Shown here: piece by piece, positions 42,877 through 59,680 of the stretch
Layout of the letters: each line of letters begins with the position of its first letter
How positions within the stretch are numbered: the stretch's first letter is position 1
Assembly (NCBI GenBank): GCA_017624855.1
Contig: JAGAMF010000007.1
Coordinates: 62,001-126,000, forward strand
Reading direction: 5' to 3'
DNA: 64,000 nt
From: Lachnospiraceae bacterium
Lineage (GTDB): Bacteria > Bacillota > Clostridia > Lachnospirales > Lachnospiraceae
The notes under the pieces: model-generated
What the model was told of the DNA's origin: nothing
What the model saw: only the letters and a program-made list of their open reading frames with translations
The model's database searches: none
Program-made: the position numbers and the translations under genes

Positions 42877-43821
42877 ATGCGTTACATTGAAGAATTAAAA
42901 GAAGGAGCTGCGGTAAAGGATATATATCTGTGCAAACAGAAAAATTATATCACAACCAAGAGCGGCAAAGAATATTGCAATGTGATTTTGCAGGATCGGA
43001 CCGGAGTTATTGAAGGAAAGGTGTGGGATCCCAACAGTTTCGGAATTTCGGAGTTTGATGCTCATGATTATATTTATATCAATGGGGATGTAAGCAGTTT
43101 TCAGGGAAAATTGCAGGTAAATATTAAGATGCTTCGCGTGGCGGAGCCCGGGGAATATGATATAAAAGAATATTATCCCATTACCAAGAAAGATATTGAT
43201 GAAATGTATGCTGAAGTTGTGGAGATTATTAACAAGGTTAAAAACGAGTATCTCAGCAAACTTCTTAAGTCCATATTTGTAGAAGATGCAGATTTTGTGG
43301 AACTTTTTAAACAGTCCTCTGCGGCAAAAAGCGTGCACCACGGCTTTATCGGCGGTTTGCTGGAACATACATTAAGCGTTGCAAAGTTATGTGATTATTT
43401 GTGTGTTTTACACCCTGTTTTAAAAAAGGATTTGTTGATTACGGCAGCGTTATGTCACGATATCGGCAAGACAAAAGAACTGTCTCTTTTCCCGGAGAAT
43501 GATTACACGGATGAAGGCAATCTTCTGGGTCATATTGTTATGGGTACGGAGATGGTGTCGGATAAAATTCGCGAGATTCCGGGATTCCCCACAGGTCTTG
43601 CAGGAGAGTTAAAACATTGCATTCTTGCCCATCACGGCAAGTTGGAATTCGGTTCGCCCAAAACACCGGCATTGATTGAAGCGGTAGCGTTGAATTATGC
43701 CGACGATACAGATGCTAAACTCCAGATGTTTACCGAGATTGTCAGTAAGGCAGATACTTATGATTGGTTGGGTTACAACCGGTTAATGGACGGCAATGTA
43801 AGAATGACCAAGGGCGAATAG
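42877..43821 (+). CDS. YhaM-like 3'-5' exoribonuclease (OB + HD)
   Basis: 314 residues from ATG 42877 (GGAAAGGA upstream; frame extends to 42844). An N-terminal OB fold (DIYLCKQKNYITTKSGKEY, LQDRTGVIEGKVWD) is followed by an HD domain (GLLEHTLSV, ALCHDIGKT, HIVMGTEMV, LAHHGKLEFGSP). YhaM-type enzymes trim RNA and single-stranded DNA. The length fits the family. Confidence 0.88.
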   Translation: MRYIEELKEGAAVKDIYLCKQKNYITTKSGKEYCNVILQDRTGVIEGKVWDPNSFGISEFDAHDYIYINGDVSSFQGKLQVNIKMLRVAEPGEYDIKEYYPITKKDIDEMYAEVVEIINKVKNEYLSKLLKSIFVEDADFVELFKQSSAAKSVHHGFIGGLLEHTLSVAKLCDYLCVLHPVLKKDLLITAALCHDIGKTKELSLFPENDYTDEGNLLGHIVMGTEMVSDKIREIPGFPTGLAGELKHCILAHHGKLEFGSPKTPALIEAVALNYADDTDAKLQMFTEIVSKADTYDWLGYNRLMDGNVRMTKGE

Positions 43822-43847
43822 AGAATATAAAGCAGGATAAGAATATT

Positions 43848-45245
43848 ATGCAGGAATATAAAAAAGGTGACTGCCTGACGGTTACCATTGAAGATTTAGA
43901 CACAGACGGTCAGGGCATCGGCAAGGCGGAGGGATATACCCTTTTCGTCAAGGATGCCCTGGTTGGTGATACAGTAAAAGTTAAAATTATGAAGGCTAAG
44001 AAAAACTATGCCTTCGCAAGGTTAGAGGAGGTTATTACGCCCTCCTCTTATCGCGTTGCGCCCAAATGCGAGCATCATCGCCGTTGCGGCGGATGCCAGT
44101 TGCAGTGCTTGTCTTATGAGGCACAGCTGCGCTTTAAGGAAAAAAAGGTGCGCAACAATCTGGTGCGTATCGGTGGTTTTAAAGAAGCAGACATTGATGG
44201 GATTATGCAGCCCATTATCGGCATGGAGGAGCCTTTTCACTATCGCAATAAGGCTCAGTATCCTATTGGGAAGGACAAGCATACCGGAAAGCCTGTGGCA
44301 GGCTTTTATGCGCAGAGAACCCACGATATTATCCCCAATACGGATTGCGCGTTGGGAGTTAAAGAGAATAAAGAGATTCTTGAGAGAATTTTATCTTGGA
44401 TGGAAGTATGTAAAATTCCGCCTTATGACGAGGTAAACGGAGAAGGATTGGTGCGCCATGTACTGATTCGTAAAGGTTTTGTCAGTGGGGAACTGATGGT
44501 GTGCCTTGTAATAAACGGCGGGGATTTACCGGCAGCAGACCGATTAATCGAATCCCTAAAAGAAGTGTCTGGCATGAAGAGTATCTCCATCAGCATAAAC
44601 CGGGAAAAAACCAATGTAATTATGGGTACTACAATCCGCACCCTGTGGGGAAGCGATACCATCGAGGATACATTGGGAGGTATTAAGTTTAGAATTTCGC
44701 CTCTCTCTTTTTATCAGGTAAACCCCGTACAGACTGAGAAGTTGTACGCTAAGGCTGTGGAATTCGCAGGCCTTACCGGCAAAGAATCCGTATGGGATTT
44801 GTATTGCGGTATCGGCACCATTTCACTTTTTATGGCGAAGAACGCAGGGAAAGTTTACGGTGTGGAGATTATTCCGGAGGCCATTGAAGATGCCAAGGGC
44901 AATGCTGAGCGCAACGGTTTTACCAATACGGAGTTTTTCGTGGGGAAGGCAGAAGAAGTGTTGCCTCAGTTTTATGAGAGGGCAAGTCGGGAAGAGGATA
45001 TGCTTCATCCGGATGTAATCGTGGTGGATCCGCCTCGTAAAGGATGCGATGTGCAGTGTCTGGACACCATGATAAAAATGCGGCCGGAGCGTATTGTGTA
45101 TGTAAGCTGCGACAGTGCAACTTTGGCGCGGGATTTGAAGATTCTGTGCGAGGGCGGGTATGAGCTTAAGAAGGCTGTATGCGTGGATATGTTCGGGATG
45201 ACGGGCCATGTGGAGACTGTAGTGTTGATGTCAAAGGCGAAGTAG
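43848..45245 (+). CDS. rlmD: 23S rRNA (uracil-C5)-methyltransferase RlmD-type
   Basis: 465 residues from ATG 43848. TRAM domain (TIEDLDTDGQGIGKAEGYT), iron-sulfur Cys set (CEHHRRCGGCQLQCLSYEAQ), SAM fold (DLYCGIGTISLFMA), and the catalytic Cys in YVSCDSATLARD. It methylates U1939 (RlmD) or related sites of 23S rRNA. The C-terminus is intact, so the mobile element behind it did not truncate the gene. Confidence 0.93.
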   Translation: MQEYKKGDCLTVTIEDLDTDGQGIGKAEGYTLFVKDALVGDTVKVKIMKAKKNYAFARLEEVITPSSYRVAPKCEHHRRCGGCQLQCLSYEAQLRFKEKKVRNNLVRIGGFKEADIDGIMQPIIGMEEPFHYRNKAQYPIGKDKHTGKPVAGFYAQRTHDIIPNTDCALGVKENKEILERILSWMEVCKIPPYDEVNGEGLVRHVLIRKGFVSGELMVCLVINGGDLPAADRLIESLKEVSGMKSISISINREKTNVIMGTTIRTLWGSDTIEDTLGGIKFRISPLSFYQVNPVQTEKLYAKAVEFAGLTGKESVWDLYCGIGTISLFMAKNAGKVYGVEIIPEAIEDAKGNAERNGFTNTEFFVGKAEEVLPQFYERASREEDMLHPDVIVVDPPRKGCDVQCLDTMIKMRPERIVYVSCDSATLARDLKILCEGGYELKKAVCVDMFGMTGHVETVVLMSKAK

Positions 45246-45480: not shown

Positions 45481-45523
45481 AAAGAGGCATTACAGATTTA
45501 TGAGTTATCTGTAATGCCTCTTT
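45481..45523. terminator. Bidirectional terminator at the element's left edge
   Basis: Perfect 17-bp stem AAAGAGGCATTACAGAT/ATCTGTAATGCCTCTTT with 9-nt loop and A/T runs on both sides. It abuts the stop codon of the gene at 45524. Confidence 0.9.
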
Positions 45524-46423
45524 TTACTGTTCATCAAGCCACTTGATAAATTGTTCTTTAGTGATAGCACCGGATTTTAGGTCTATTTGCATGGCTTTTA
45601 AGGTATCCATAAAATTATCATAATCTTTGCAAGCCTTTTCGCTATTGCTGTGGCGGTAGTAGTATTGATATCTGGCTTTTTTCTTTAGGCGGATTTGTTT
45701 ATCTACATCGTTTTCATTGGAATGTGTTCGGTGAGTTCTCTGAGCGCCATCAATTTTACAGGTTGTTTTGGTGTTGAAAGGGCTGGTTCTGTCACAGTAT
45801 TTGGCATCGGAACGCTCTGCAATAAAATATTTTTCACAGTTCTGACACTTTAAGATATTGCACTCATGTGTAATTAAGAAGTGCAAGGAAGCTATGCAGG
45901 CATCTTCCACAGTCTCACATTCGTAAGTGGTGAGTGGAACATCGTAGATTTCATTCTTTGCAGCCACATATCCACGCATCATTCGTTCCAATGGTGACAT
46001 CTCATTATTCTTTTCTATGAAATCTTCTACAGATTTATCTTCTTGTCCTTCCTTCATAACCAAGGTGTAGTGCATGGCAGGGAGGCTTAATCCTTGCGAT
46101 TCTAGAAAAAACATGAAGCAGGATTCCTCAAAAAAGCTTTTATTTTCAATTCCTAAATCCACATATTCCCGTAACTGAACAAGAAAGTGAGAATCGGATG
46201 TAATTCCTTCACAGGTATCTCCGGCAGCCTGAATAAAAGGATGATTGCTTTTTGCGATATTTCCTTCCATAGAAATAAAGTCTGTAAACATTTCTCCCAG
46301 ACCAGCTTTTATATTTAATCTGCGGTTGTAGATTTTCTTTAGGAATTCTTCTCTAAATTGTGGTCTTTCACCATAGACAAGTTCTCCATCTTTTCCGGTT
46401 CGAAATGACATTGTAAAACTCAT
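45524..46423 (-). CDS. Zinc-ribbon protein, DUF6076-like
   Basis: 299 residues. The N-terminal two thirds are helical and unrecognised. A Cys-rich motif ILKCQNCEKYFIAERSDAKYC (Cys at four positions) resembles CGNR-type zinc fingers; the C-terminus is basic and coiled (KKKARYQYYYRHS). I recall DUF6076 for such proteins, from memory. It is divergent from the HTH gene, an arrangement typical of the control region of a mobile element. Confidence 0.65.
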   Translation of the reverse strand: MSFTMSFRTGKDGELVYGERPQFREEFLKKIYNRRLNIKAGLGEMFTDFISMEGNIAKSNHPFIQAAGDTCEGITSDSHFLVQLREYVDLGIENKSFFEESCFMFFLESQGLSLPAMHYTLVMKEGQEDKSVEDFIEKNNEMSPLERMMRGYVAAKNEIYDVPLTTYECETVEDACIASLHFLITHECNILKCQNCEKYFIAERSDAKYCDRTSPFNTKTTCKIDGAQRTHRTHSNENDVDKQIRLKKKARYQYYYRHSNSEKACKDYDNFMDTLKAMQIDLKSGAITKEQFIKWLDEQ

Positions 46424-46451
46424 AAAGTGAACCTCCTATCGTTAAATGTAA

Positions 46452-46542
46452 TGCAATTGCAATCAATTCAATATTGCTTACAAACCCCTATTGAAAGAGA
46501 TGGAGTAAACAAGTATTATGATGTTGTAATAATTGTATTACA
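46452..46542. promoter_or_regulatory. Two operator-like palindromes in the divergent region
   Basis: TGCAATTGCA (46452-46461) and TGTAAT-N6-ATTACA (46525-46542) lie between the zinc-ribbon gene and the HTH gene; either could be bound by the small HTH protein. Confidence 0.45.
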
Positions 46543-46575
46543 CGAAACAAAAATCTGTCAAGGAGGTAAATAAAA

Positions 46576-46773
46576 ATGTGTAATGAAGATTTGAGAAATG
46601 AAATCAGAATTGCAAATGTGAAGCAGTGGGAAGTAGCCGATGCTATTGGTATTTCCGAAATGACCATGGTCAAATGGCTTCGCAAGGAACTAAGTCCTGA
46701 CAAGAAAGCAATGGTCAGAAATGGTATTGCAGAAGTTAGGGCAAAACACGAATCGAATAAACAATTAGGCTAA
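46576..46773 (+). CDS. Small helix-turn-helix protein
   Basis: 65 residues with ANVKQWEVADAIGISEMTMVKW as a Cro/excisionase-like HTH, followed by a basic helix. AGGAGG upstream. Probably the switch or excision regulator of the element; the specific role is inference. Confidence 0.7.
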   Translation: MCNEDLRNEIRIANVKQWEVADAIGISEMTMVKWLRKELSPDKKAMVRNGIAEVRAKHESNKQLG

Positions 46774-46859
46774 GGCTGGTCGTTCCCCATTTGGATGTCG
46801 ACCTTAAACACGAAGACGAAGGGGAAAACTGTCAAAAATAATAGGAAGGAGAACGGATT

Positions 46860-47027
46860 ATGAAGAACAGAGAAAGACAGCGAGCAAATCGCAGAATGAA
46901 GCAGGAATTTTTATCCATGCACAATGATATGGGAATCAAAGACCCTACACCATACCATGCAGTAAAGCATATGGTAGAGCAGGAAAAGAAAGCTTCCAAA
47001 TCTTCTAATAAGAAAGGGGTAGCATAG
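46860..47027 (+). CDS. Small basic protein of the mobile element
   Basis: 55 residues, 2 nt before the primase-helicase start. GGAAGGAG lies 8 nt upstream. It opens MKNRERQRANRRMKQEF and holds a helical HAVKHMVEQEKKA segment. No family recognised; very basic, so nucleic-acid binding is possible. Confidence 0.6.
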   Translation: MKNRERQRANRRMKQEFLSMHNDMGIKDPTPYHAVKHMVEQEKKASKSSNKKGVA

Positions 47028-47029
47028 AA

Positions 47030-49969
47030 ATGAATAATAGAGAGTTGTTAGAATACATCTTTCGAGGTGGGGGAAAGCAGGTTGTGAGTACTCTGCCGGA
47101 GGGAATCCACAAACAGTTTGATGCCAAGGATGTGGATGCTGCATGGGAATATATTGTGGAGCAAGGGAAGACATCAAATGTTTACATTAATCCCAATGGT
47201 AGAAGAGAGGATTTGCCAAATGGTATCAGAGGCGGTGATGATGATGTAAGAACGGTCATTGCATTAGAGGTAGATGCTGATGTGCTAGGACCTGCTCATA
47301 AGGAACAGAACCTGCCACCGACAAAGCAGGATGCAATTGATACCCTTAATGGGCTGTCAATTCCGCCATCGGTAATCGTAGATTCCGGCTATGGGATTTA
47401 TGGATATTATTTATTCGAAAGTCCAATTGATACAACGGATGAGGAAACGAGAAGGCGTGTGGTTGCAATATATAAAGGGTTTGGAAAGTCTGTAACCAAA
47501 GCATTTGCAGAAAAAGGCTGGAAAATAGATCAGGTATTTAACATTTCACATTGTTTCAGAGCGCCGGGAAGTTTGAATCACAAATTAAATAATGAAAAGC
47601 CAGAGTGTCGTGTCATTGTTGATAACGGCATTTTTTATACCCTAGAAGATTTCGAGAAGTTCTATGAGGAGCCTGTTGTAGAGCATACTGCTTTTGAAGT
47701 GGATGAGCGAGTGGTTGGAAGTGCAGAGAGGATATTGGACAGATGCGCTTTTGTTCGTAAGCTGGTAGATACCCCGGATTGTGTTACCGAGCCGGAATGG
47801 AAAGCAGCACTTTCTAATATAACACTTGCTAAAGATGGAACGGAAAAAGCACACGAATGGAGTTCTTTATATACGGGGTATTCTGTAGAAGAAACGGAAA
47901 CCAAGGTATTACAATGCCGGAAGGCGAAGAAACCTTGCACTTGCGCCTACATAAAGGATGCATTGGGATTCGATTGTCCGGAAGGTGGATGTGGTGTGAA
48001 AGCACCTGTGGTATTTTCTTTATTATCGAAAGAAGAGCAGATTGCAAATCTGATAAAGGAAGAAAAGCCTACTATGGAATATCTGTTTGACCCGTATGTA
48101 GTGAAACTTCTTCCTTATGCTAAAGAGCATTGTCCTATCGAGTATTCCAAGATTAAGGCAATGGCAAAGCAGGCAGGAATCGGACTTCGTGATTTTGAGA
48201 AAGTGGTAAAAAAAGAGGCGGAAAAGCAGTCCCGGAGTATCTTGGATGAATTTGACATAGAACCAACGGAAATTCACTTGAAGGGAATGGATACCAAGGG
48301 TGCCATGACACCAAGAGGGTATCGCATTTCTGATGCGAATGGAGTGGAAGTTGTCAGAGCAGAAGAAGGTGTTGCTTTTTGTGAAACGCTTTGTGGTGAA
48401 CCGCTTATTATTAGCAAGCGTACCGAGAATGTAGACAATGGTACAGAGAAATATGAGCTGGCTTATCGGAGAAATCATAGGTGGAAGAAAATTGTGGCAT
48501 CCAGATCCACGGTACTTAATAAGAATAAGATTATTCAGTATGCAGATTATGGTGTTCCGGTATCGTCGGATAATGTAGAAGGTGTGGTTCGCTATATTGG
48601 TGCTTATGAGTCTGAGAATGAGAGAAAGATTCCTTTTGTTAGAAGTACAGACAGAATCGGATGGATGGGGAATGAGTTCTTTCCTTATGTAGTGGATGGC
48701 GAGGTTTTATATGAGAACAACGAGGGTACCGAACTGGTGGATAGTCTAAATGAAAGTGGAAGTTTTGAAGTTTGGATGCAAATGGCATTGAAACTACGAG
48801 AGGAAACATTCGCAAGGGCGATTTTAGCAGCATCTTTTGTATCTCCGCTACTAGAACTGTTACAGATGAGAGTTATCATTCTTCATTTGTGGCATTCTTC
48901 CAGAAGTGGTAAGACTGCAATCCTAAAATTTGCTCTTTCCATATGGGGAGACCCATTAAAGCTGATGGGTAATTTTAACAGTACGGCAGTCGGTCTGGAA
49001 AGAAGGGCAGGAACATTAAAACATCTGCCACTGGGACTGGATGAATTGCAGGTGTTAAATGAGAAACGCTTATCACCGTCACTGATTGTATATTCTCTCG
49101 GTAATGGGTACGGGAAGACAAGAGGTGCTAAAAATGGTGGTCTTCAGGATGTACCTACATGGAGAAACAGCATCATTAGTACGGGTGAACAGCCACTTGC
49201 AAGTGAAAATTCCATGGATGGTGTGAACAGCAGGGTGTTGGAACTTTACGGTCAGCCTGTTAGTAATCCGGAATATGGCAGAGAGGTTCATCGCATTAGC
49301 GAGAGTAATCATGGCTTTGCCGGGAGAATGTTTATTCAGTATCTTATTGATGAAGTGATTATGAATAAGAAAAAGATGCACGAGGATTTTGAAACTATGA
49401 GAGATACGCTGGTGCAGGAATTTGCAAATCTGAATAAAGGCGATATCGGTGTTCATCTGGATACCATTGCCGTTCTTTCGTTAGCTGATTGGTATTCATC
49501 AGTTTCTGTATTTAATGCAGACAAGGATATTGCTTGGAATGATGCGGTGGAACTTGGTATTGCTCTTTTAAGCAATGCAAAGGAGCAGGAGAAAGAAGAC
49601 GTGATTGTAAGGGCATTTGCTTATATCACAGACTGGATTGCTGCAAATCGTACCAGATTTGAAAAGCATGCAACTCCATGCTATGGAATGGTGGAAACAA
49701 ACAAAGTTTATGTGATTGCAAGTGAGTTTCGCAGTGCTTTGGAGGACGGAGGATTTTCTTACAGCAAATGTATCAAAGGATTTAGGGAGAGAGGCTATAT
49801 TGCATCTTATCCGGATGCGGGCGGTGTGGAAAGAACACAATGCCAGAAACGAATACAGGGAGTCAATGTCAGAGCCATATGCCTAAATATGAAGTTGGAA
49901 GCTTTGTATCCGGTAGAGGAAGATTTCCTTGTAGGGAATGTGGTGCCGCTTACCGGGAAGGTATCGTAG
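47030..49969 (+). CDS. Primase-helicase (AEP-like primase + DUF927-type helicase)
   Basis: 979 residues. The N-terminal 200 residues look like an archaeo-eukaryotic primase: Asp82-x-Asp84 in ALEVDADV, then SGYGIYGYYLFE and SHCFRAPGSLNHK. A Cys-rich linker (PCTCAYIK, DCPEGGCG) follows. The C-terminal half has the DUF927 pattern, Walker A HSSRSGKTA (about 625) and Walker B LGLDELQ (about 668). Such fusions open and prime the origin of phages, plasmids and P4-like satellites. An iteron cluster immediately follows the gene. Confidence 0.82.
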   Translation: MNNRELLEYIFRGGGKQVVSTLPEGIHKQFDAKDVDAAWEYIVEQGKTSNVYINPNGRREDLPNGIRGGDDDVRTVIALEVDADVLGPAHKEQNLPPTKQDAIDTLNGLSIPPSVIVDSGYGIYGYYLFESPIDTTDEETRRRVVAIYKGFGKSVTKAFAEKGWKIDQVFNISHCFRAPGSLNHKLNNEKPECRVIVDNGIFYTLEDFEKFYEEPVVEHTAFEVDERVVGSAERILDRCAFVRKLVDTPDCVTEPEWKAALSNITLAKDGTEKAHEWSSLYTGYSVEETETKVLQCRKAKKPCTCAYIKDALGFDCPEGGCGVKAPVVFSLLSKEEQIANLIKEEKPTMEYLFDPYVVKLLPYAKEHCPIEYSKIKAMAKQAGIGLRDFEKVVKKEAEKQSRSILDEFDIEPTEIHLKGMDTKGAMTPRGYRISDANGVEVVRAEEGVAFCETLCGEPLIISKRTENVDNGTEKYELAYRRNHRWKKIVASRSTVLNKNKIIQYADYGVPVSSDNVEGVVRYIGAYESENERKIPFVRSTDRIGWMGNEFFPYVVDGEVLYENNEGTELVDSLNESGSFEVWMQMALKLREETFARAILAASFVSPLLELLQMRVIILHLWHSSRSGKTAILKFALSIWGDPLKLMGNFNSTAVGLERRAGTLKHLPLGLDELQVLNEKRLSPSLIVYSLGNGYGKTRGAKNGGLQDVPTWRNSIISTGEQPLASENSMDGVNSRVLELYGQPVSNPEYGREVHRISESNHGFAGRMFIQYLIDEVIMNKKKMHEDFETMRDTLVQEFANLNKGDIGVHLDTIAVLSLADWYSSVSVFNADKDIAWNDAVELGIALLSNAKEQEKEDVIVRAFAYITDWIAANRTRFEKHATPCYGMVETNKVYVIASEFRSALEDGGFSYSKCIKGFRERGYIASYPDAGGVERTQCQKRIQGVNVRAICLNMKLEALYPVEEDFLVGNVVPLTGKVS

Positions 49970-50214
49970 CCAGTGTAACCACTGTAGCCACTTTCCCGGA
50001 GTGATACCAGTTATATATATAATAGAATAAAAAGAAATGGGGGGATGAATATTTTAATTGCCCCTATATATAATGTTTCTACTAAAAAGTGGTTACAGTG
50101 GTTACATTGTTCTTTTTATTCACATGAAACCATTGATTTTATGGCATTTCTTTAATGCCTAAAATGTAGCCGGTAGCAAATTTGTAGTGGTTACAAGTGG
50201 CTACGAGTGGCTAC
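49967..50214 (+). repeat. Iteron cluster, candidate replication origin
   Basis: Eight copies of AGTGGYTAC: three inverted and tandem at 49967-49993 (TAGCCAGTG, TAACCACTG, TAGCCACTT; the first overlaps the primase stop codon), two direct tandem at 50088-50105, three direct at 50186-50214 with 10-bp period. AT-rich stretches (around 50012-50030 and 50061-50075) lie between. This is the layout expected of an origin bound by an initiator, directly behind the primase-helicase. Confidence 0.7.
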
Positions 50215-50243
50215 AAATATATGTGGAAGGAGGGAAGGAACTC

Positions 50244-50555
50244 ATGAAAAAAAAGATGTTGGAGCAGTACAAGGAACTTGGTGCGATGTTTCGCACTTAT
50301 AAAACGATGGCAGTAAAACTTAGTGTGAATGCATCGAACTTTTTGACAAAAGCAAAGTGGCAGAAACTTCAAAAGGCTGTGGACACTGTTGGAAGTTTTG
50401 CATCCGAGTTGGAGGATAAAATGTTTGAGGAGCATCCGGAACTTACAGATGAGTATGTGGATGTATTCTATGGAGCAACAACCAATGAACCTCGTAATGA
50501 GTTGGATGCTGAGATGGTAACCAGAGCAAAAGCATTTTGCAAAACATTATTTTAG
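50244..50555 (+). CDS. Small helical protein of the element
   Basis: 103 residues from ATG 50244 (GGAGGGAAGGAA upstream). All-alpha with KKKMLEQYKELGAMF and WQKLQKAVDTVGSF. No domain recognised. It lies between the iterons and the packaging genes. Confidence 0.6.
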   Translation: MKKKMLEQYKELGAMFRTYKTMAVKLSVNASNFLTKAKWQKLQKAVDTVGSFASELEDKMFEEHPELTDEYVDVFYGATTNEPRNELDAEMVTRAKAFCKTLF

Positions 50556-50634
50556 ATTTTGATGAAGTAAATATGGGTATAGAGACATGTCTGACAGAGA
50601 TTATCTGCCGGGCATTTTTTATCCCCATTATTGT

Positions 50635-50735
50635 AGTGGGAGGCCCCTAGGGGGAGGTAAATCTCTACACCTTTTTTCCTTGGGGAACGGTGCCGGGGTC
50701 ACACGCATAACTTTGGCGAAATCAAACGCAAAAAA
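50635..50735 (+). other. cos-like packaging region
   Basis: The GC-rich stretch with the perfect palindrome CCCCTAGGGG (50644-50653), then TAAATCTCTACACC and GGGGTCACACGCATAACTTTGGCGAAAT, sits just before a P27 small terminase gene. From memory, clostridial cos phages carry similar sequence at this place. No biochemical site can be assigned by eye. Confidence 0.4.
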
Positions 50736-50764
50736 ATGAGAAATCAAACAAGGAGGAATGTGAA

Positions 50765-51325
50765 ATGGCAAAAGATGGTACTAGCCGTGGCGGTTCACGT
50801 CTCGGTGCAGGCAGAAAACCAAAAGCTGTGGCAGAAAAAATAGCTACAGGTAATCCGGGTGGCAGAAAACTTACTGTTATGGATTTCGGTGATAGTGCTG
50901 AAAATCTTATCGGTGTAGAAATGCCGCCCGTCAGTGAGTATATGAAAGCGGAGCAAAAAGATGGTGGAAGCATGTGCGCTGCAGAAATATACCAGGAAAC
51001 ATGGGGATGGTTGCATGAGAGAAAGTGCGACCACCTTGTAACAAAGCAGCAGATAGAGCATTATGCTATGTCTGTGGCTCGTTGGATTCAGTGTGAGGAG
51101 GCAATATCCAAGTTTGGATTCCTTGCCAAGAAACCAACAGGAACGGTGATTTCTTCTCCGTATGTAACGATGGCGAAGGAATACATGAAACAAGCAAATA
51201 CCGCATGGTATGCGATTTATCAAGTAGTAAAAGAAAACTGTATGTCAGAAATTACAGGACACACACCCCAGGATGATGCAATGGAGAGATTGCTCCGTGC
51301 AAGAATGGGTAACACAAGATTTTAA
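50765..51325 (+). CDS. Phage terminase small subunit, P27 family
   Basis: 186 residues. SRGGSRLGAGRKPKAVAEK and GNPGGRK at the start, the helical DNA-binding core, and the P27 ending DDAMERLLRARMG. The small terminase recognises the packaging site and recruits the large subunit, which is absent here. GGAGG upstream; 18 nt to the capsid gene. Confidence 0.85.
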   Translation: MAKDGTSRGGSRLGAGRKPKAVAEKIATGNPGGRKLTVMDFGDSAENLIGVEMPPVSEYMKAEQKDGGSMCAAEIYQETWGWLHERKCDHLVTKQQIEHYAMSVARWIQCEEAISKFGFLAKKPTGTVISSPYVTMAKEYMKQANTAWYAIYQVVKENCMSEITGHTPQDDAMERLLRARMGNTRF

Positions 51326-51343
51326 TTTTAGGAGGATTTGATT

Positions 51344-52354
51344 ATGAATACAAATTTAGTGGCTACAGACATTATGGCTCGCCTTGATGAAATGGTAGCA
51401 AAATTCAATGGAACAAAGGTGGAAACACCTGTAGTGGATACCAAAAAGGCAGAACAATATCGTACAGCCTTTTGGAGTCATATGCAGACCGGAATGCCGG
51501 AAAATGCATTAAAAGAAGGAAGTGACGGCTCGGGTGGATACCTTGTGCCGGATACCTATGAGAAGAAACTGGTAAAAGCACTTACAGAAAAGAACTTCAT
51601 GCGTCAAATCGGTCATGTTATTCCGACTACACATGATTTGAAGATTTCGCTTGCTTATTCCACCGGAACCGCTGACTGGATTCAGGAGGGAAAACAGATG
51701 ACTTTCATGGATGCAGAATTTGGGCAAGCAAAAATTAGTGCGTATAAGTTAGGTGCTACGGTACTTGTATCGGATGAATTGTTGGAAGATGCAGAAATTG
51801 ATTTGGAAGAATATGTGCATAGTTCTATGGTGGAAACGATTGGAGAACGTGAAGAAGAGGCATTCCTTGTAGGGAATGGAAAAGGTAAGCCGACCGGAAT
51901 TATCTATCAGGCAGAAGTGGGAACAGAAACAGAAGAAAGAGGTATTATTTCAATGGATGATGCCATGGACCTTACTTATTCTGTTAAGGGACCTTATCGT
52001 AAAAATGCTATTTTTGTTATGTCGGAAGAAGCCTATCTTTCTCTTCGTAAATATAAGCATTTAAATGGAAGACCTGCATGGAGTTCCAATTTGGCAGATA
52101 AGGAGCCGGAGACATTGTTTGGTTACCCTGTATATGTTTCAAAATATCTTCCTGACCTTACACCGGGTAACACACCAATCCTTTTTGGCGATTTTAGTTA
52201 TTTTTGGATTGGGGATCGTGGAAAGCGTAATATGAAACGTCTTTCAGAACGTTTCGCAGACCGTGGAATGATTGGCTTTGTGATGTCACAGCGTGTGGAT
52301 GCAAAGCTGGTGCTTCCGGAGGCAGTGAAGACACTTAAGGTAAGAGAAGCGTAA
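51344..52354 (+). CDS. HK97-type major capsid protein with very short N-terminal arm
   Basis: 336 residues from ATG 51344 (AGGAGG upstream; TTG 51338 lacks spacing). Fold markers: GSGGYLVPDTYEKKLVKAL, ATVLVSDELLEDA, EEAFLVGNGKGKPTGI, GDFSYFWIGDRG and RVDAKLVLPEAVKTL. The usual delta (scaffold) domain of about 100 residues is reduced to about 35, and no head protease gene is present, so an uncleaved shell is implied. It could form a capsid for the element. Confidence 0.88.
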   Translation: MNTNLVATDIMARLDEMVAKFNGTKVETPVVDTKKAEQYRTAFWSHMQTGMPENALKEGSDGSGGYLVPDTYEKKLVKALTEKNFMRQIGHVIPTTHDLKISLAYSTGTADWIQEGKQMTFMDAEFGQAKISAYKLGATVLVSDELLEDAEIDLEEYVHSSMVETIGEREEEAFLVGNGKGKPTGIIYQAEVGTETEERGIISMDDAMDLTYSVKGPYRKNAIFVMSEEAYLSLRKYKHLNGRPAWSSNLADKEPETLFGYPVYVSKYLPDLTPGNTPILFGDFSYFWIGDRGKRNMKRLSERFADRGMIGFVMSQRVDAKLVLPEAVKTLKVREA

Positions 52355-52415
52355 TAATTATATTGATTGGGGCGGTTCGGTGGAATCGCTCTTATGTATT
52401 GGTGGAGGTACTACG

Positions 52416-52706
52416 ATGGAAAACACAAAAATTATTCATCCTTTGTATTTTCACGAAGATGGTACCTCTGCCCTTAAAGCAGAAGTGCAGGATACTTCGT
52501 GTAAATTAGTGGGATTGCCGGGAAATGTAAAGTATAAAAAATCAAGAATGACAGAGGAAGAATTACAAAGAGAATATGACTATTATTTGGCAGAAAAAAT
52601 CGCAAAGAAAATGCGTGATTCTGGCATTATTTCCATAAAAGAATACACAAAATTGAGGGAAGAAAACCGCAGATTTTTCTCTCCTTTTTTAGCAGAAATC
52701 AGTTGA
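52416..52706 (+). CDS. Small protein preceding the recombinases (SHOCT-like end)
   Basis: 96 residues from ATG 52416 (GGAGG upstream). The C-terminal half reads MRDSGIISIKEYTKLREENR, the length and pattern of an SHOCT-type helical hairpin, common in genes just upstream of clostridial serine recombinases. The N-terminal half is unrecognised. Confidence 0.55.
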   Translation: MENTKIIHPLYFHEDGTSALKAEVQDTSCKLVGLPGNVKYKKSRMTEEELQREYDYYLAEKIAKKMRDSGIISIKEYTKLREENRRFFSPFLAEIS

Positions 52707-52758
52707 TATTAGTTGGATAGTACGGGGTAATGGTACTGTCAGAAAGGTAGGTGAGACG

Positions 52759-54303
52759 ATGGCTAGGATAACAAAGATTGAGCCAAATCATACTGTTGCA
52801 AACAAAATAAAAGTAGCTGCGTACTGTAGAGTCTCTACAGACCAGAATGAGCAGTTATTATCCCTTGAAACGCAGAAAGCACATTATGAATCATGGATTA
52901 GAAGTCATGACGAATGGGAATATGCCGGACTTTATTATGATGAGGGCATTAGCGGAACAAAAAAGGATACAAGACCTGCTCTTATGCAGATGCTTTCTGA
53001 TTGTGAGCATGGCATGATTGATTATGTGGTTACGAAATCCATAAGCAGACTGGCAAGGAATACAACGGACTGTTTGGAAATCGTAAGAAAATTATTGGAC
53101 CTTGGAATTGCAGTATATTTTGAAAAAGAAAATATTGATACCGGGTCGATGGATAGTGAATTGCTTTTATCCATTATGGGAAGTATTGCAGAAAGTGAGT
53201 CCTTATCCATTTCAGAGAATAATAAATGGAGTATTCAGAAGAAATTTCAAAATGGAACTTTCAAGTGTTCTTATCCTCCATATGGTTATGATTGGGACAA
53301 GAAGAAAGGGGAGATGGTTGTTAACCCTGAGCAAGCAGAAATAGTGAAATACATATTTGCACAGACCCTTGTTGGAGTAGGAACACATGATATAGCAAAA
53401 GACCTTGCTGTAAAAGGTGTTCCTACTAAGAAGGGAGGAAAGTGGACGGGGCATACGGTTAACGGTATTATCCGAAATGAAAAATACACGGGAGACTGTT
53501 TGTTTCAGAAAACATATACGGATTCCTCCTATAAGCGTCATACAAATTTTGGAGAATTAGATCAGTATTATGTTGAAAATCACCATGAGGCTATCATTTC
53601 AAGAGAAGAGTATGAGGCTGCCAACGCAGTGGTTGACCGAAGACGCGAGGAAAAGGGAATCGAACTTGAAAGCCAGAAGTATAACAACAGATATCCTTTA
53701 TCTGGCAGAGTAATTTGTGGGAATTGCGGTGGCACATATAAACGCAAGACTTATAGTAAAAAAGTAGTTCTTGCATGCACTACTCACATAGAGGATAAAG
53801 ATAAGTGCAATATGAAATACATTGACCTTGCAGATGTGGAAAGGGCGTTTGCAACCATGATGAACAAGTTAATATTTGGCAGAAACAGAGTATTGAAGCC
53901 ATTTTATGCAAGCGTCCGGGATAGTAATAAAACGGATGCTTTTTTGCGAATCCATGAAATTGATGAGCAGTTAGAACTCATTACGGAGAAAAAGCAGAAT
54001 ATCAAAGGTTTGTATGCGCAGGGAATTATTGAACCTGTCATGTATGCAAAAGGTATGAATGATTTATCTGCCGAGGCAGACAGATTGCTTACGGAAAGGG
54101 ACAGCATCAGCTATGCGGCGAAAACAGACATTGCTTATATCGAAGAAGCGAAAGAATTGCTGGATTATACAGATGGAGCTGCCATATTGACAGGATTTGA
54201 GGCAGATGTATTCGAGAGATTTGTAGATAGAATTGTAGTAAGAGACCGACATCATTTGCAATTTGAAATGAAGTGCGGATTAAAATTAACAGAAAGGATT
54301 TGA
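52759..54303 (+). CDS. Large serine recombinase 1
   Basis: 514 residues. Catalytic Ser in YCRVSTDQNEQ, then DEGISGTKKDTRPALMQML and KSISRLARNT; a recombinase domain (YGYDWDKKKGEM), a zinc ribbon (SGRVICGNCGGTYKRK) and a C-terminal coiled coil. Such enzymes integrate and excise DNA at att sites, often with a directionality factor. Confidence 0.92.
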   Translation: MARITKIEPNHTVANKIKVAAYCRVSTDQNEQLLSLETQKAHYESWIRSHDEWEYAGLYYDEGISGTKKDTRPALMQMLSDCEHGMIDYVVTKSISRLARNTTDCLEIVRKLLDLGIAVYFEKENIDTGSMDSELLLSIMGSIAESESLSISENNKWSIQKKFQNGTFKCSYPPYGYDWDKKKGEMVVNPEQAEIVKYIFAQTLVGVGTHDIAKDLAVKGVPTKKGGKWTGHTVNGIIRNEKYTGDCLFQKTYTDSSYKRHTNFGELDQYYVENHHEAIISREEYEAANAVVDRRREEKGIELESQKYNNRYPLSGRVICGNCGGTYKRKTYSKKVVLACTTHIEDKDKCNMKYIDLADVERAFATMMNKLIFGRNRVLKPFYASVRDSNKTDAFLRIHEIDEQLELITEKKQNIKGLYAQGIIEPVMYAKGMNDLSAEADRLLTERDSISYAAKTDIAYIEEAKELLDYTDGAAILTGFEADVFERFVDRIVVRDRHHLQFEMKCGLKLTERI

Positions 54304-54307
54304 TGGA

Positions 54308-54718
54308 ATGGGACATACACCATACGGATATAAAATCGTAAATGGTCTGGCTGTTATTGATGAGGTAGAAGGAGCAGCCGTCAAGAAACTGTATGAGGGT
54401 TATCTGGGCGGTCTTGGATTACAGGCGGCTGCGGATGAATCCGGAATAGAGATTAGTCATAGTCAAGCAAAGAGAATGATGCTGAATAAAAAGTATCTTG
54501 GAACAGATTATTATCCGGCACTTATTACGGAAGATACGATGGAGCAGGTCAAGACGGAACTAAAAAAGAGAGCAGGAAAGCTTGGCAGAGTATATGAACC
54601 CAAGGAGCAGGAGAAACAGGCTGTTCCAACAAGGTTTCAATTTGGCAAAGAGGAGCAGTACTTTGAAAATCCTTTTTTGCAGGCACAGTATATGTATGAA
54701 TTAATAGAGGGAGTGTGA
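54308..54718 (+). CDS. Serine-recombinase-related protein without catalytic domain
   Basis: 136 residues, starting 5 nt after the first recombinase. It begins GHTPYGYKI, which is the start of the recombinase DNA-binding domain, and continues with [20 protein letters not shown]; there is no resolvase domain. I recall the same middle gene in trios in other Clostridia, so it is probably a functional partner, not a frameshift fragment. Confidence 0.75.
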
Positions 54719-54722
54719 CGTT

Positions 54723-56282
54723 ATGGCGAACGTAACAGTGATTCCTGCACGAAGATGCAGAGTGCAAGCGGGTGCAGTACAAGAAAAGCCTAAGATTAAA
54801 GTGGCAGCATATTGTCGTGTTTCCACGGATAGTGATGAACAGGCAACTAGTTATGAAATGCAAGTGGAACATTACACGGAATACATCAGCAAGAATCCCG
54901 GATGGGAACTTGCGGGTATTTATGCCGATGATGGTATCAGCGGTACTAACACCAAGAAAAGAGAAGACTTTAATCGAATGATTGAAGATTGTATGGCAGG
55001 TAAAATCGACTTTGTGATTTCAAAATCCATCAGCCGATTTGCCAGAAATACGCTCGATTGCCTTCAGTACATCAGACAGCTTAAGGACAAGGGCATTGCA
55101 GTATTTTTTGAAAAAGAAAACATCAATACGATGGATACAAAGGGAGAACTTCTCCTTACCATTATGGCTTCACTTGCACAGCAGGAATCGGAAAGTTTAT
55201 CCCAGAATGTTAAGTTGGGATTACAGTTCAGATACCAAGCTGGGAAGGTGCAGGTCAATCACAATCGTTTTCTTGGATATACGAAGGACGATGATGGAAA
55301 CCTTATCATTGAGCCTACTGAGGCAGCAGTTATTAAAAGGATATACAGAGAGTGCCTTGAAGGGGCAAGTTATAGGGATATTTGCAACGGCCTTATGGCA
55401 GACGGAATACTTACCGGGGCAGGAAAAAAGAAATGGATTCCAAGCACCATTCATAAGATTTTATCAAATGAGAAGTACATCGGTGATGCCCTTCTTCAAA
55501 AGACCATTACTACGAATCTGCTTGAAAAGAAAAGAGAAATCAATAATGGTCTTGCACCACAATATTATGTGGAAGACAGCCACGAAGCCATTATTCCGAG
55601 AGACCTTTTTATGAGGGTTCAGGAAGAAATGGTACGAAGAGCCAATCTTAGGAGTGGCGAGGACGGAAAGAAGAAACGCATCTACAGTAGCAAGTATGCC
55701 CTTTCAAGCCTCTGCACCTGCGAAAAATGCGGAGATGTTTATCGAAGAATCGCATGGAACAACAGGGGCAAGAAATACACGGTATGGAGATGTTGCACAA
55801 GAGTGGAACATGGTCCCGGCGAATGCGATGCACCTACTGTTTTAGAAGAAGATTTGCAGGCAGCAGTTATGAAAGCAATCAACAAGGTGGTGGGGCAGAA
55901 AAGCACGGTAATCGAAAACCTTGAAACTATTCTGGAGCAGACAGTTATTTGTGCAGATGAGGAACTTGCAGAACTTGACGAGAAAATAAAAGCGGTACAG
56001 CTTGAACTTGTCGACAGAGCCACTTCATCAGAAGGTTATGAAGATTTGGCAAGAGAATCGAATAGGCTGAATGAAGAAAAGCAGAAAATTCTGGTAACCC
56101 TTGCTGAAGATAAGGGCAGACAGGAAAAGAAAGCAGAACTCATTGATTTCCTTCATGATCAGACCACCGAGTTTGATGAGTTCGATGATGGTTTGGTCAG
56201 AAGGCTTATTGAACAGATAACGGTGCATGAGAATGGAACATTTACAGTAGAATTTAAGAGTGGAACGATGGTGGAAGTATAA
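54723..56282 (+). CDS. Large serine recombinase 2
   Basis: 519 residues. Catalytic Ser in [45 protein letters not shown]-binding domain, zinc ribbon ([16 protein letters not shown]) and coiled coil ([19 protein letters not shown]). Diverged from recombinase 1 by eye but of the same plan. It marks the right part of the element. Confidence 0.92.
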
Positions 56283-56284
56283 GA

Positions 56285-56327
56285 AATAAGCCAAGCGCCG
56301 GGATTGGTTTCCCGTCGCTTGCTTATT
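56285..56327 (+). repeat. Long inverted repeat after the last recombinase
   Basis: Arms AATAAGC-c-AAGCGcCGGGA and TCCCGtCGCTT-GCTTATT pair almost completely around a 6-nt loop. Could act as a terminator (weak T run) or as part of the attachment site; it also touches the stop codon of the next gene. Confidence 0.65.
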
Positions 56328-56640
56328 ATTCGTTATCAAGTTGTTTTCTGTAATTGCTAGGGGAGCTTCCTTTTTGTTTATGAAATATACGACTGAAGTA
56401 CAGTGGGTTATCATATCCAACAATTCTTCCAATTTCAGTTACAGAATAAGTGGTTGTTTCTAAAAGAGTTTGAGCATTGGTCACTCTGGTTGATACAATA
56501 TACTGCATAGGTGTTGTGCCGGTATATTCTTTAAAGTTTCTAATGAACCAGCTTATACTCATACCTCGTGAAAGCGCATATTCTTCAATGTTTATTTCAG
56601 TATTGTAATTATCGTTAAAGTATTGTGTAGCCAATTCCAT
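56326..56640 (-). pseudogene. AraC family regulator, truncated to the DNA-binding domain
   Basis: 104 residues covering the double helix-turn-helix (YALSRGMSISWFIRNFKEYTG, GRIVGYDNPLYFSRIFHK). The cupin sensor half that should precede it is missing; upstream sequence instead reads as a galK fragment on the other strand. No ribosome site ahead of the Met. Probably a remnant. Confidence 0.75.
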
Positions 56641-56818
56641 TTAAAGCATATATTACAAGCGATGTATTAATTGGAGCAGGACTTTCGTCATCAGCTGCCT
56701 ACGAAACATTAATTGGAAACATTGTATCTGGTCTATACAATAATATGAGTGTTTCGGCAGAAGAGATAATCTATTTGGGATATGTAGAAGGATATTACAA
56801 GAAACTGCAAAGGTAATA
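56637..56818 (+). pseudogene. galK: Galactokinase fragment
   Basis: Frame PFKAYITSDVLIGAGLSSSAAY from 56637 onward is the GHMP ATP-binding motif of galactokinase, continuing AYETLIGNIVSGLYNN. After VSA the frame is shifted by an extra AG (56760-56763), and the continuation EEIIYLGYVEGYYKKLQR ends at 56818. Both ends are missing, so it is a decayed internal piece. Confidence 0.7.
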
Positions 56819-58097: not shown

Positions 58098-59402
58098 ATG
58101 TCAAAAATCAAGATTAAGATTAAGAAAGGAATCTCTGTGGCTGTAGGAATCATGATGGTAATGGCAAGTCTTACAGGATGTGCACAGAGCTCGTCAAGTG
58201 AAAAAGTGGAAGTAGAACTGGTTTCCTACAAACCAGAAGCGGTAGCGGCTTTTGAGAAGATTGCAGAACGATTCAATGAAACACATGATGATATTCACCT
58301 GACGATTGATTCGCCAAATGAAGCTATGACAATCTTGAAGACAAGGTTTGTCAGAGAGGATTACCCCGATATTGTAGGGATTGGAGGAGACATTAATTAC
58401 TCCAATTTCCTCGATGCGGATTTGTTTATGGACATTTCTGATCTTGAGGAAATCGGAATGGTAAAGCAATCGTATCTGGATATTGATAAAGAATTGGAGT
58501 TTGTGCCACAGGAGGGAACCTATGCGTTACCATATGTAGCGAATGCTGCAGGAATTCTGTACAACAAAGATATGTTTGAAGAGCACGGATGGACAATTCC
58601 GGAAACATGGGATGAATTTCTTGCCTTATGTGACAAAATCGAGGCTGCTGGCATACAACCATTGTATTTAGGATATAAAGATACATGGACATGTCTGGCA
58701 CCGTGGAATGCACTGGCAGTCGGACTGACCGACTCGGATACCTGTAATCAGGTCAATATGGGAAATACGACTTTTACGGAAGAATATCGTGAGACGGCTG
58801 AAAAAATCAGGGTATTGCTCGATTATGCAGAACCAAATCCCTATGCATATGGATATAATGATGCATGTACTGCGTTTGCAAGGGGACAGTCTGCAATGTA
58901 TCCAATCGGCAGTTATGCAATTCCACAGATTAGGTCAGTGAATCCGACAATAAATATTGATTCCTTCACTTTTCCGGCAAATGAATCAGAGGAAGAGAAT
59001 GTCTTAAATTCTGGAATTGATTTGCAATTCTGCGTCATGAAGAACTGTGAGAACAAAGAAGCAGTGTATGAGGTTCTTCGTTTTCTGTATGAAGATGAAA
59101 CAGTTCAGATTTATCTTGACGAACAGGGCGGTATTGCATGCAAGGAAGGAGATTTCGATATTCCTTCGGAATTAGAGGGAATGCGGACCTATATTGAGAA
59201 TGACAGAATGGCAGATTTTCAGGATCATCATTATCCAAGTGAAATGAGTGTTGATGCCATGATACAGACATATCTGCTGGATAGTAGCGAAACAGCAACA
59301 GATACATTCTTGAAAAGGTTCGACACAGACTGGAAACGGTATAACAGGGATTTGATCCGAAAGGTGCAGCAATACCAGAAGGAAAAGGAGGGTGCACAAT
59401 GA
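58098..59402 (+). CDS. Sugar ABC transporter substrate-binding lipoprotein
   Basis: 434 residues. Lipobox ASLTGC with Cys28; the mature part has the solute-binding fold of family 1 (VAAFEKIAERFNETHDDI, AGILYNKDMFEEHGWTIPET, SAMYPIGSYAIPQIR). In a galactoside context it probably binds raffinose- or melibiose-like sugars. AAAGGAG upstream; the stop overlaps the permease start. With the permease gene broken, it may have no working transporter here. Confidence 0.9.
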   Translation: MSKIKIKIKKGISVAVGIMMVMASLTGCAQSSSSEKVEVELVSYKPEAVAAFEKIAERFNETHDDIHLTIDSPNEAMTILKTRFVREDYPDIVGIGGDINYSNFLDADLFMDISDLEEIGMVKQSYLDIDKELEFVPQEGTYALPYVANAAGILYNKDMFEEHGWTIPETWDEFLALCDKIEAAGIQPLYLGYKDTWTCLAPWNALAVGLTDSDTCNQVNMGNTTFTEEYRETAEKIRVLLDYAEPNPYAYGYNDACTAFARGQSAMYPIGSYAIPQIRSVNPTINIDSFTFPANESEEENVLNSGIDLQFCVMKNCENKEAVYEVLRFLYEDETVQIYLDEQGGIACKEGDFDIPSELEGMRTYIENDRMADFQDHHYPSEMSVDAMIQTYLLDSSETATDTFLKRFDTDWKRYNRDLIRKVQQYQKEKEGAQ

Positions 59403-59680
59403 AAAAGAAAATGACAAATCGGGATAAGACATTCTGGGCAGTGATCATACCGGTACTAATATTGTTCTTTGCCTTTAATACGTTGCCTATGATTAAGGGC
59501 GTCATATATAGTTTCACAAATTACAGGGGATATGGTTCCTATGATTATGTTGGATTTCGCAATTATATGGATCTCTTTACCGATGCCAGAGTAGTCAGGT
59601 ATTTAGGAATGTTATCCACCGTCAAAATGACGAAGCTAACAGTATACGAAAATGGCATATATGCGCCATTTCTGCTATAA
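59399..59680 (+). pseudogene. Sugar ABC permease, N-terminal fragment interrupted by IS66
   Basis: The first 70 residues match an MalF/UgpA-type permease: MIKGVIYSFTNYRGYG, then YVGFRNYMDLFTDARVVRYL. The remaining residues to the stop at 59680 belong to the insertion. The rest of the permease and the second permease gene do not follow the element. Confidence 0.85.

Follow-up and report, generated by a model that had tools for sequence, protein, structure and literature searches.

A compact block at positions 45,481 to 56,327 of a 64,000-nucleotide stretch of DNA from Lachnospiraceae bacterium (assembly GCA_017624855.1, contig JAGAMF010000007.1, positions 62,001 to 126,000 of the forward strand; the whole stretch is called the window below) raises the question of how a set of genes with a capsid protein and a small terminase, and with no large terminase, portal or protease, is maintained and moved. 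The answer favoured here, which we consider probable, is that the block is an integrated phage satellite of the cos type, whose major capsid protein (MCP) and small terminase (TerS) would redirect the capsid and the packaging of a helper phage; spread by hijacking the particles of other phages is the most likely route. The integrated block of about 11 kb is real and belongs to a family of small mobile elements whose hosts are Clostridia, many of them gut bacteria; the family combines a packaging site of phage type with a shortened capsid gene and has no portal, no packaging motor and no tail. The host genome comprises 1.95 Mb in 14 contigs and is 74.5% complete.

The minimal gene set and its recurrence

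The order of the genes in the element is DUF6076, helix-turn-helix (HTH) protein, a 55-residue open reading frame (ORF), primase-helicase, iterons, a 122-residue ORF, cos, TerS, MCP, SHOCT_2 protein and a trio of recombinases. The following features carry the argument (profile matches with E values in brackets):

47030..49969, + strand: primase-helicase, DUF927 with Cch-type HTH_56 (PF06048 3e-44, PF18662 5e-21; phrog_8841 9e-125)
49971..50215, no strand assigned: putative replication origin, inverted iterons AGTGG(T/C)TACA flanking an AT-rich stretch
50644..50727, + strand: predicted cos site, packaging start, GGGGGAGGTAAATCTCTAC...AACGGTGCCGGGGTCACACGCA (phage-trained profile 4.4e-12)
50765..51325, + strand: P27-family small terminase, TerS (PF05119 1.2e-7; phrog_83 3.9e-29)
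51344..52354, + strand: HK97-fold MCP, 336 residues from the likely ATG, listed ORF from 51338 (PF05065 5e-68)
52759..54303, + strand: large serine recombinase 1 (Resolvase PF00239 3.7e-35, Recombinase PF07508 1.6e-23, zinc ribbon PF13408 6.9e-12)
54308..54718, + strand: 136-residue recombinase-like partner without a resolvase domain (phrog_7701 3e-47 over 134 of 137 positions)
54723..56282, + strand: large serine recombinase 2 (phrog_95 4e-147)

Profile matches from Pfam, PHROGs and NCBIfam, each of which was given 10 of the 11 main element ORFs, agree with the original prediction on the control genes, the primase-helicase, TerS, the MCP and the recombinases; the 55-residue ORF (46860-47027), the 122-residue ORF (50187-50555) and the SHOCT_2 gene (52380-52706) had been overlooked there. 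The iteron cluster that it described is also real, the iteron 9-mer occurring in four copies at 49971-50215, a number reached in 0 of 200 dinucleotide shuffles; the same test in 18 other elements gave at most 2 of 200 in seven and nothing unusual in eleven.

The claim that large terminase (TerL), portal and protease are missing held as well. None of the three was matched among the ORFs of the element with the same three collections, which also gave no named match to a head-tail connector at E ≤ 0.1, and local profiles found none of the three in any of 21 complete primase-to-recombinase loci (for the protease, the profile seeds had been chosen by their position, and all five were later confirmed as PF00574 with Pfam). 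TerL and portal were detected with Pfam in 0 of 29 satellite virus records versus 4 of 4 phage controls. With the local profiles, 68 MCP loci without TerL, portal and protease stood against 57 with at least one of them, the 68 including repeat contigs (for example L024, which is the window, and L110, which equals L062; L and G numbers are our labels for loci and genomes) and the fragments L020 and L089, which were treated as phage in the tree.

Relatives were collected by IMG/VR scans with the MCP, TerS and primase and by a GTDB genome scan with the MCP. The same minimal order recurs in dozens of loci, the MCP being followed by serine recombinases within 2.5 kb in 49 of them (the window, the L024 slice and several near-identical copies counted). 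The satellite set is mostly MCP-derived, which biases the frequencies of its tiers towards the MCP, and the primase scan serves as a check: 13 of 80 loci exceeded 1150 bits (four of them near-identical), 12 of which have an MCP and, on the slice, neither TerL nor portal, while one, L297, has no MCP. Hosts are represented by IMG/VR contigs and GTDB genomes, the titles of the latter being mostly Clostridia, often from gut or rumen samples. The main-group MCP profile picked out members in 4 of the 391 class genomes scanned (450-599 bits) and in 2 of the 397 family genomes (456-599 bits), the own genome counted each time; the remaining matches listed reach at most 363 bits and are mostly phage-size frames of about 390-480 residues, and among those of the family scan are shorter frames (246-347 residues), some of them at the end of a contig, which are possibly further short MCPs. 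No description of this satellite family was found in the open-licence PubMed Central (PMC) literature, bioRxiv lying outside that scope; a description may still exist elsewhere.

The presence of TerS and that of the MCP vary independently of each other on a common chassis. Among the 21 primase-to-recombinase loci, not all of which are independent, nine carry both (TerS being reduced to a remnant in L005 and the MCP being short in L028), nine the MCP only, two neither (L297 and L314) and one TerS only (L220). The cos site was detected in 17 of the 21, both L297 and L314 keeping it, and a degenerate cos upstream of TerS was seen by eye in L220. The 136-residue partner of the recombinases occurs also in L002, L050, L055, L454 and the phage L014. 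As a separate observation, the members without an MCP (L314 3049-4355, L297 4944-5786, L220 7611-8174) keep the primase, the recombinases and, by eye, the HTH/zinc-ribbon protein.

The genome G831 (two contigs, 100% complete) holds three capsid-bearing elements, L454, L457 and L458, along with a prophage, L459, with TerL and portal. L454 has cos, TerS, MCP, SHOCT and the recombinase trio, and L457 (5439-10903) and L458 have cos and a 300-residue MCP without the delta region described below, set on a second chassis, which in L457 consists of an NrS-1/D5-type primase and one DUF4368 serine recombinase. L457 and L458 are 93-97% identical in pieces and lie at two different sites, which suggests recent movement.

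The satellite MCPs are under purifying selection, with ratios of nonsynonymous to synonymous substitution (dN/dS) of 0.047-0.145 in 11 pairs, one of them near saturation; the corresponding values for TerS were 0.084-0.197 in four pairs, with saturation in a fifth. The MCP tree places the 42 satellite rows in two groups of 37 and 5 (support 100/99 each) apart from 41 phage rows, and two label changes are needed versus 28 on average after shuffling; the satellite MCPs may nonetheless share one origin (least number of changes forced, 1; 5% of the bootstrap trees). All 24 of 24 phage loci with the five genes, some of them repeats, have TerL, portal and a ClpP-type protease (PF00574) placed between TerS and MCP, and because phages keep these genes there, the satellite set probably arose by loss of the TerL-portal-protease block. 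The original prediction had named, as what would speak against it, just such a phage arrangement together with a minimal order that does not recur; the former was found, and the order does recur. Since it recurs in MCP groups that stand apart from the phages and are under purifying selection, the block is not a recent deletion scar, and the earlier claim of a selected minimal set is borne out by the recurrence, the selection and the 21 loci.

The cos site and the capsid protein

The cos composite pattern is GGGGGnGGTCAAATCTCTACG-N~17-ACGGgCgtGGGGTCtCACGCA, lying upstream of TerS or, in loci that lack this gene, upstream of the MCP; in L004, L008, L045 and L074 the site stands on the opposite strand behind the MCP. 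At E < 0.01, a profile built from 33 phage sites recognised 37 of the 54 satellite sequences, among them the window, and in the reversed-sequence control of the 54 the sole match had an E value of 0.21, so the cos-like region of the original prediction is real at 50644-50727. The training sites were chosen by the satellite-derived pattern, and part of the loci had been fetched by that pattern. The cleaner test used a profile from 20 satellite sites on loci fetched by TerS: it matched 56 of 63 regions upstream of P27 TerS versus 13 of 189 random windows, some of which may overlap true sites, with only 37 of the 63 loci carrying TerL or portal on the slice. In 291 records, 147 matches to the pattern were followed by P27 TerS in 113 cases, by the MCP in 7, by neither in 21 and by the contig end in 6. 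Among 14 matches without TerS or MCP that were viewed, seven preceded a 541-residue ORF of TerL size (judged by length only), and two more had the same lay-out cut by the contig end. None of 48 phage records found with TerS has that gene within its first 1,400 bases, and none starts at the site, so physical cos ends were not seen there. Paired copies of cos stand close together in three loci, inverted in L064 (6768-6951) and L088 (9780-9964) and direct in L027 (9782-9962). The TerS that follows the window site belongs to the P27 family by PF05119 (32.5 bits, cut-off 24.7), and its TIGR01558 score of 21.1 bits is under the cut-off of 45.6.

The MCP belongs to the HK97 family by TIGR01554 (271.5 bits, cut-off 27.5), and its AlphaFold model has the HK97 fold (predicted local distance difference test score 85, predicted template modelling score 0.78). 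In a Foldseek search with this model, the best match was the gene-transfer-agent capsid 6tb9 (Rcc01687; 4e-23), and the capsid of EcCI2, a capsid-forming phage-inducible chromosomal island (cf-PICI; 9gyi), was also close (4e-18), being a clear structural and sequence relative of the window MCP. The MCP is 36-42% identical to 12 aligned phage MCPs and differs from such proteins at its start: before the conserved tyrosine of the N-arm, phage MCPs have 94 residues (90-97, n = 12), the main satellite group 38 (35-49, n = 25) and the second satellite group 6 (6-20, n = 3), as counted in 40 selected rows with starts hand-trimmed to the likely methionine. In MCPs of the HK97 type this stretch forms the delta scaffold domain, which the phage protease removes, as described in PMC5052747. 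An element without a protease thus has an MCP without most of the delta region, that is, without most of the substrate of the protease. The N-arm after the delta region has 28 residues in the satellite MCP versus a comparison range of 29-35.

Proposed mechanism, known systems and rival explanations

In the mechanism proposed, the serine recombinases would integrate and excise the element, the primase-helicase would replicate it from the adjoining iteron origin, and a helper phage of the HNH-cos-P27 TerS-HK97 type would supply TerL, portal, protease, connectors, tail and lysis functions. The cos site and P27 TerS of the satellite would steer the helper TerL onto satellite DNA, and the MCP with its delta region of about 38 residues would enter helper assembly, leading to a small, element-sized capsid and to blocked helper heads, in the manner of Ccm in SaPIbov5. 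A mixed shell of satellite MCP and helper protein is the form we favour, yet it is among the least certain parts of the scheme and has roughly an even chance of being correct.

Phage-inducible chromosomal islands (PICIs) have a tyrosine integrase and Stl-type control, and SaPIbov5 is not known to have a TerL of its own. The element would work like SaPIbov5 with Ccm, which is its closer functional match, and is not a member by integrase or MCP sequence. The likeness consists of a phage cos site in the element (recognised here by its sequence), a single HK97 MCP homologue with a shortened delta region (here 38 versus 94 residues; in Ccm 87 versus 128 in the helper protein, PMC8569155), a size of about 10-15 kb with an own replication module, and no own portal or protease, no protease of SaPIbov5 being identified and its portal coming from phi12 (PMC8569155 and PMC5052747). 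According to PMC8569155, Ccm takes the pentamers of helper capsids, which leads to T=4 shells, and its short N-arm apparently keeps it from forming a closed shell by itself; it is 24% identical to the phi12 protein, so that the window MCP (36-42%) is nearer to phage MCPs. The window element also differs from SaPIbov5 in its serine recombinases and Cch-like DUF927 primase, in the P27 TerS that many members have, in its hosts, in control genes that match families other than the Stl type, and in an MCP without detectable sequence relation to Ccm in a PDB search.

The original prediction had likened the block to cf-PICIs, with which it shares an own HK97 MCP and TerS; the comparison did not hold, most of the defining set of MCP, protease, portal, connectors, TerL, TerS and HNH (PMC10690885) being absent, and SaPIbov5 with Ccm is closer (PMC8569155, PMC5052747). 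Identity with a cf-PICI was rejected on the missing TerL, portal, protease and connectors, and HNH was seen in two members only (L003 by eye, L032 by Pfam). MulchRoom and MiniFlayer are likewise satellites with their own MCP, but they carry TerL, portal and scaffold, and MulchRoom has a tyrosine integrase, as given in PMC10690885. The primase-helicase and the recombinases resemble Cch and Ccr of staphylococcal cassette chromosome (SCC) elements by profile; identity with these was rejected on NCBIfam scores under the cut-offs (SCCmet_Cch1 67 bits, cut-off 700; CcrB 133.5 and 147.2 bits, cut-off 900), and the window element differs from them in its phage packaging genes and cos site. The HK97-type cos phages L013, L014, L228, L240 and L247 have homologous cos, TerS and MCP, L014 also having the recombinase trio, and differ in the TerL, portal and ClpP-type protease between TerS and MCP and in a full-length delta region.

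Several observations weigh against the satellite interpretation. Excision, replication, helper dependence and packaging are deduced for an element known from its sequence alone. No helper is present in its own genome, where, at 74.5% completeness, TerL (PF03354) and portal (PF04860) gave 0 matches and the only PF05065 match is the window MCP. In 17 other host metagenome-assembled genomes (MAGs), matches at E ≤ 0.001 were obtained for TerL in four (one below the cut-off) and for portal in six (two below), both together occurring in only 4 of the 17; the satellite loci themselves have no TerL, portal or protease by the local profiles. The phage-trained profile missed cos in 17 of the 54 satellite sequences: eight of these are contigs that start at or past the expected place (L002, L009, L034, L035, L057, L067, L072, L077), and nine are not so explained (L005, L028, L030, L036, L038, L043, L065, L073, L220), the site of L073 being recovered by a combined profile at 4.5e-5. 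No empty integration site was found, because the genus shows no conservation of the right flank; the ends of the twin elements L457 and L458 show no clear attachment core, and terminal repeats sought in 393 loci, many of them slices, were not found. Damaged relatives exist: G706/L456 has an MCP with two stops, L028 a short MCP and a split recombinase, L005 a primase cut short and no more than some 50 residues left of TerS, and L458 a primase interrupted by roughly 2 kb of additional DNA. Replacement of pentamers is an analogy, the window MCP keeping a near-normal N-arm, unlike Ccm. Finally, Ccm, which is presumably deposited in the PDB at full length, was not among the PDB sequence matches of the MCP (34 at E ≤ 10, no 355-residue chain); the 402-residue chain 7rwz_B, of the length of the phi12 capsid protein and from what we take to be the phi12/SaPIbov5 entry, matched at 1e-12.

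A decaying prophage, from which TerS, MCP and recombinases would be left over after a deletion, is the reading to which the phage gene order (24 of 24 loci, which makes deletion a likely origin) and the damaged relatives lend some support. It is nevertheless very improbable and was rejected, dN/dS being well under 1, a single order running across dozens of loci, the satellite MCP groups lying apart from the phages, and one two-contig genome holding three capsid-bearing elements, of which two, inserted at separate sites, share 93-97% identity in pieces. Less probable still is a domesticated, encapsulin-like nanocompartment on a mobile element: the MCP does stand without portal or protease, and NCBIfam gave a trace match to a family-3 encapsulin at E 0.024, but this match has 13.8 bits against a cut-off of 180 whereas the HK97 phage MCP model reaches 271.5 bits, on which scores encapsulin identity was rejected; moreover, no cargo gene was recognised, and cos and TerS adjoin the MCP.

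The MCP might instead serve purely as a weapon that poisons helper heads and so protects the host, the element moving as a bare circular intermediate, by conjugation or by SCC-like transfer. Its Cch-like primase and Ccr-like recombinases recall SCC elements, and Ccm lowers helper titre 10^6-10^7 fold according to PMC5052747; this reading is improbable all the same, since cos is kept even without TerS and MCP (L297, L314), which points to packaging. A more serious, though still doubtful, rival is a satellite whose MCP builds a small shell of its own without delta domain or protease, with portal, motor and tail from the helper. Here the MCP retains the HK97 fold, its N-arm is of near-normal length, unlike the short one of Ccm, which is believed to keep that protein from closing into shells (PMC8569155), a lost delta region is in keeping with a lost protease, and the delta region is short or absent in both MCP groups, with the second-chassis copies having a 300-residue MCP; against it stand the lack of a portal or connector in the element, the role of the delta domain as scaffold in HK97-type phages (PMC5052747) and the protease and portal that shell-building cf-PICIs keep in the account of PMC10690885. 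A broader version is offered tentatively: an old satellite family might have shed the delta scaffold and the need for a protease, its MCP forming a dedicated small shell on a hijacked portal, with TerS and MCP swappable on a fixed cos-primase-recombinase chassis, helper dependence graded (cos; cos and TerS; cos and MCP; cos, TerS and MCP) and the same cos-MCP cassette taken up by one or more unrelated chassis (L457, L458). The satellite that redirects helper capsids remains the reading preferred here.

Accessory genes, flanks and significance of the family

The other features of the block and its borders are:

43764..45245, + strand: host gene of the left flank (listed ORF; true start possibly further in)
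45524..46423, - strand: DUF6076 zinc-ribbon protein, candidate regulator (Pfam PF19553 1.8e-10)
46576..46773, + strand: small HTH protein (phrog_17740 3.3e-10)
46860..47027, + strand: 55-residue ORF of unknown function, 5' of the primase (relatives in L053, L058, L059 and L065, 48-52%)
50187..50555, + strand: 122-residue protein of unknown function (phrog_13765 2.5e-25; true start possibly further in)
52380..52706, + strand: SHOCT_2 protein, 5' of the recombinases (PF20612 2.4e-13)
56326..56640, - strand: AraC C-terminal fragment of the right flank, beyond the recombinase end (PF12833 3.7e-19)

L058 has a relative of DUF6076 in the equivalent position (43% identity) and one of the small HTH protein (70%), and the 122-residue protein is present in L001 too. 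Between MCP and recombinases, many members have a small protein with a sigma-region-4-like HTH (Pfam) and a zinc-ribbon-like part (L026 11077-11451), whose cluster occurs in 33 of 62 clustered loci versus seven for SHOCT; it is possibly a late-gene regulator.

The left-flank gene, which we take to be rlmD/RumA-like, has nucleotide matches in 28 of 31 genomes of the same genus, the own genome counted, and homology to the five best siblings stops at about 45197-45226, just short of its stop codon. A partly decayed family element lies near an rlmD-like gene in an uncultured Lachnospira MAG (L028 16519-17907), in the orientation opposite to that of the window, and is followed by the same host neighbours. 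The DNA behind this gene is a possible hotspot of integration. On the right, the AraC fragment is probably outside the element. Beside this truncated gene, a 130-base stretch of the window (56639-56768), presumably resembling a piece of a sugar kinase gene, is repeated with 100% identity about 11 kb onward on the same contig (G000:C14:129632-129761). Further on (59399-61319), an apparent transport permease gene is cut at about 59680, immediately before a 541-residue ORF that we take to be like an IS66-type transposase.

The best-known phage satellites are those of staphylococci, enterobacteria and vibrios. The family described here combines cos, TerS and a delta-shortened MCP in defined combinations in Clostridia, and it offers two MCP groups in which the HK97 scaffold domain is shortened or missing. 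As a natural series, it lends itself to the question of what a satellite itself must carry in order to control its packaging and the size of the capsid.

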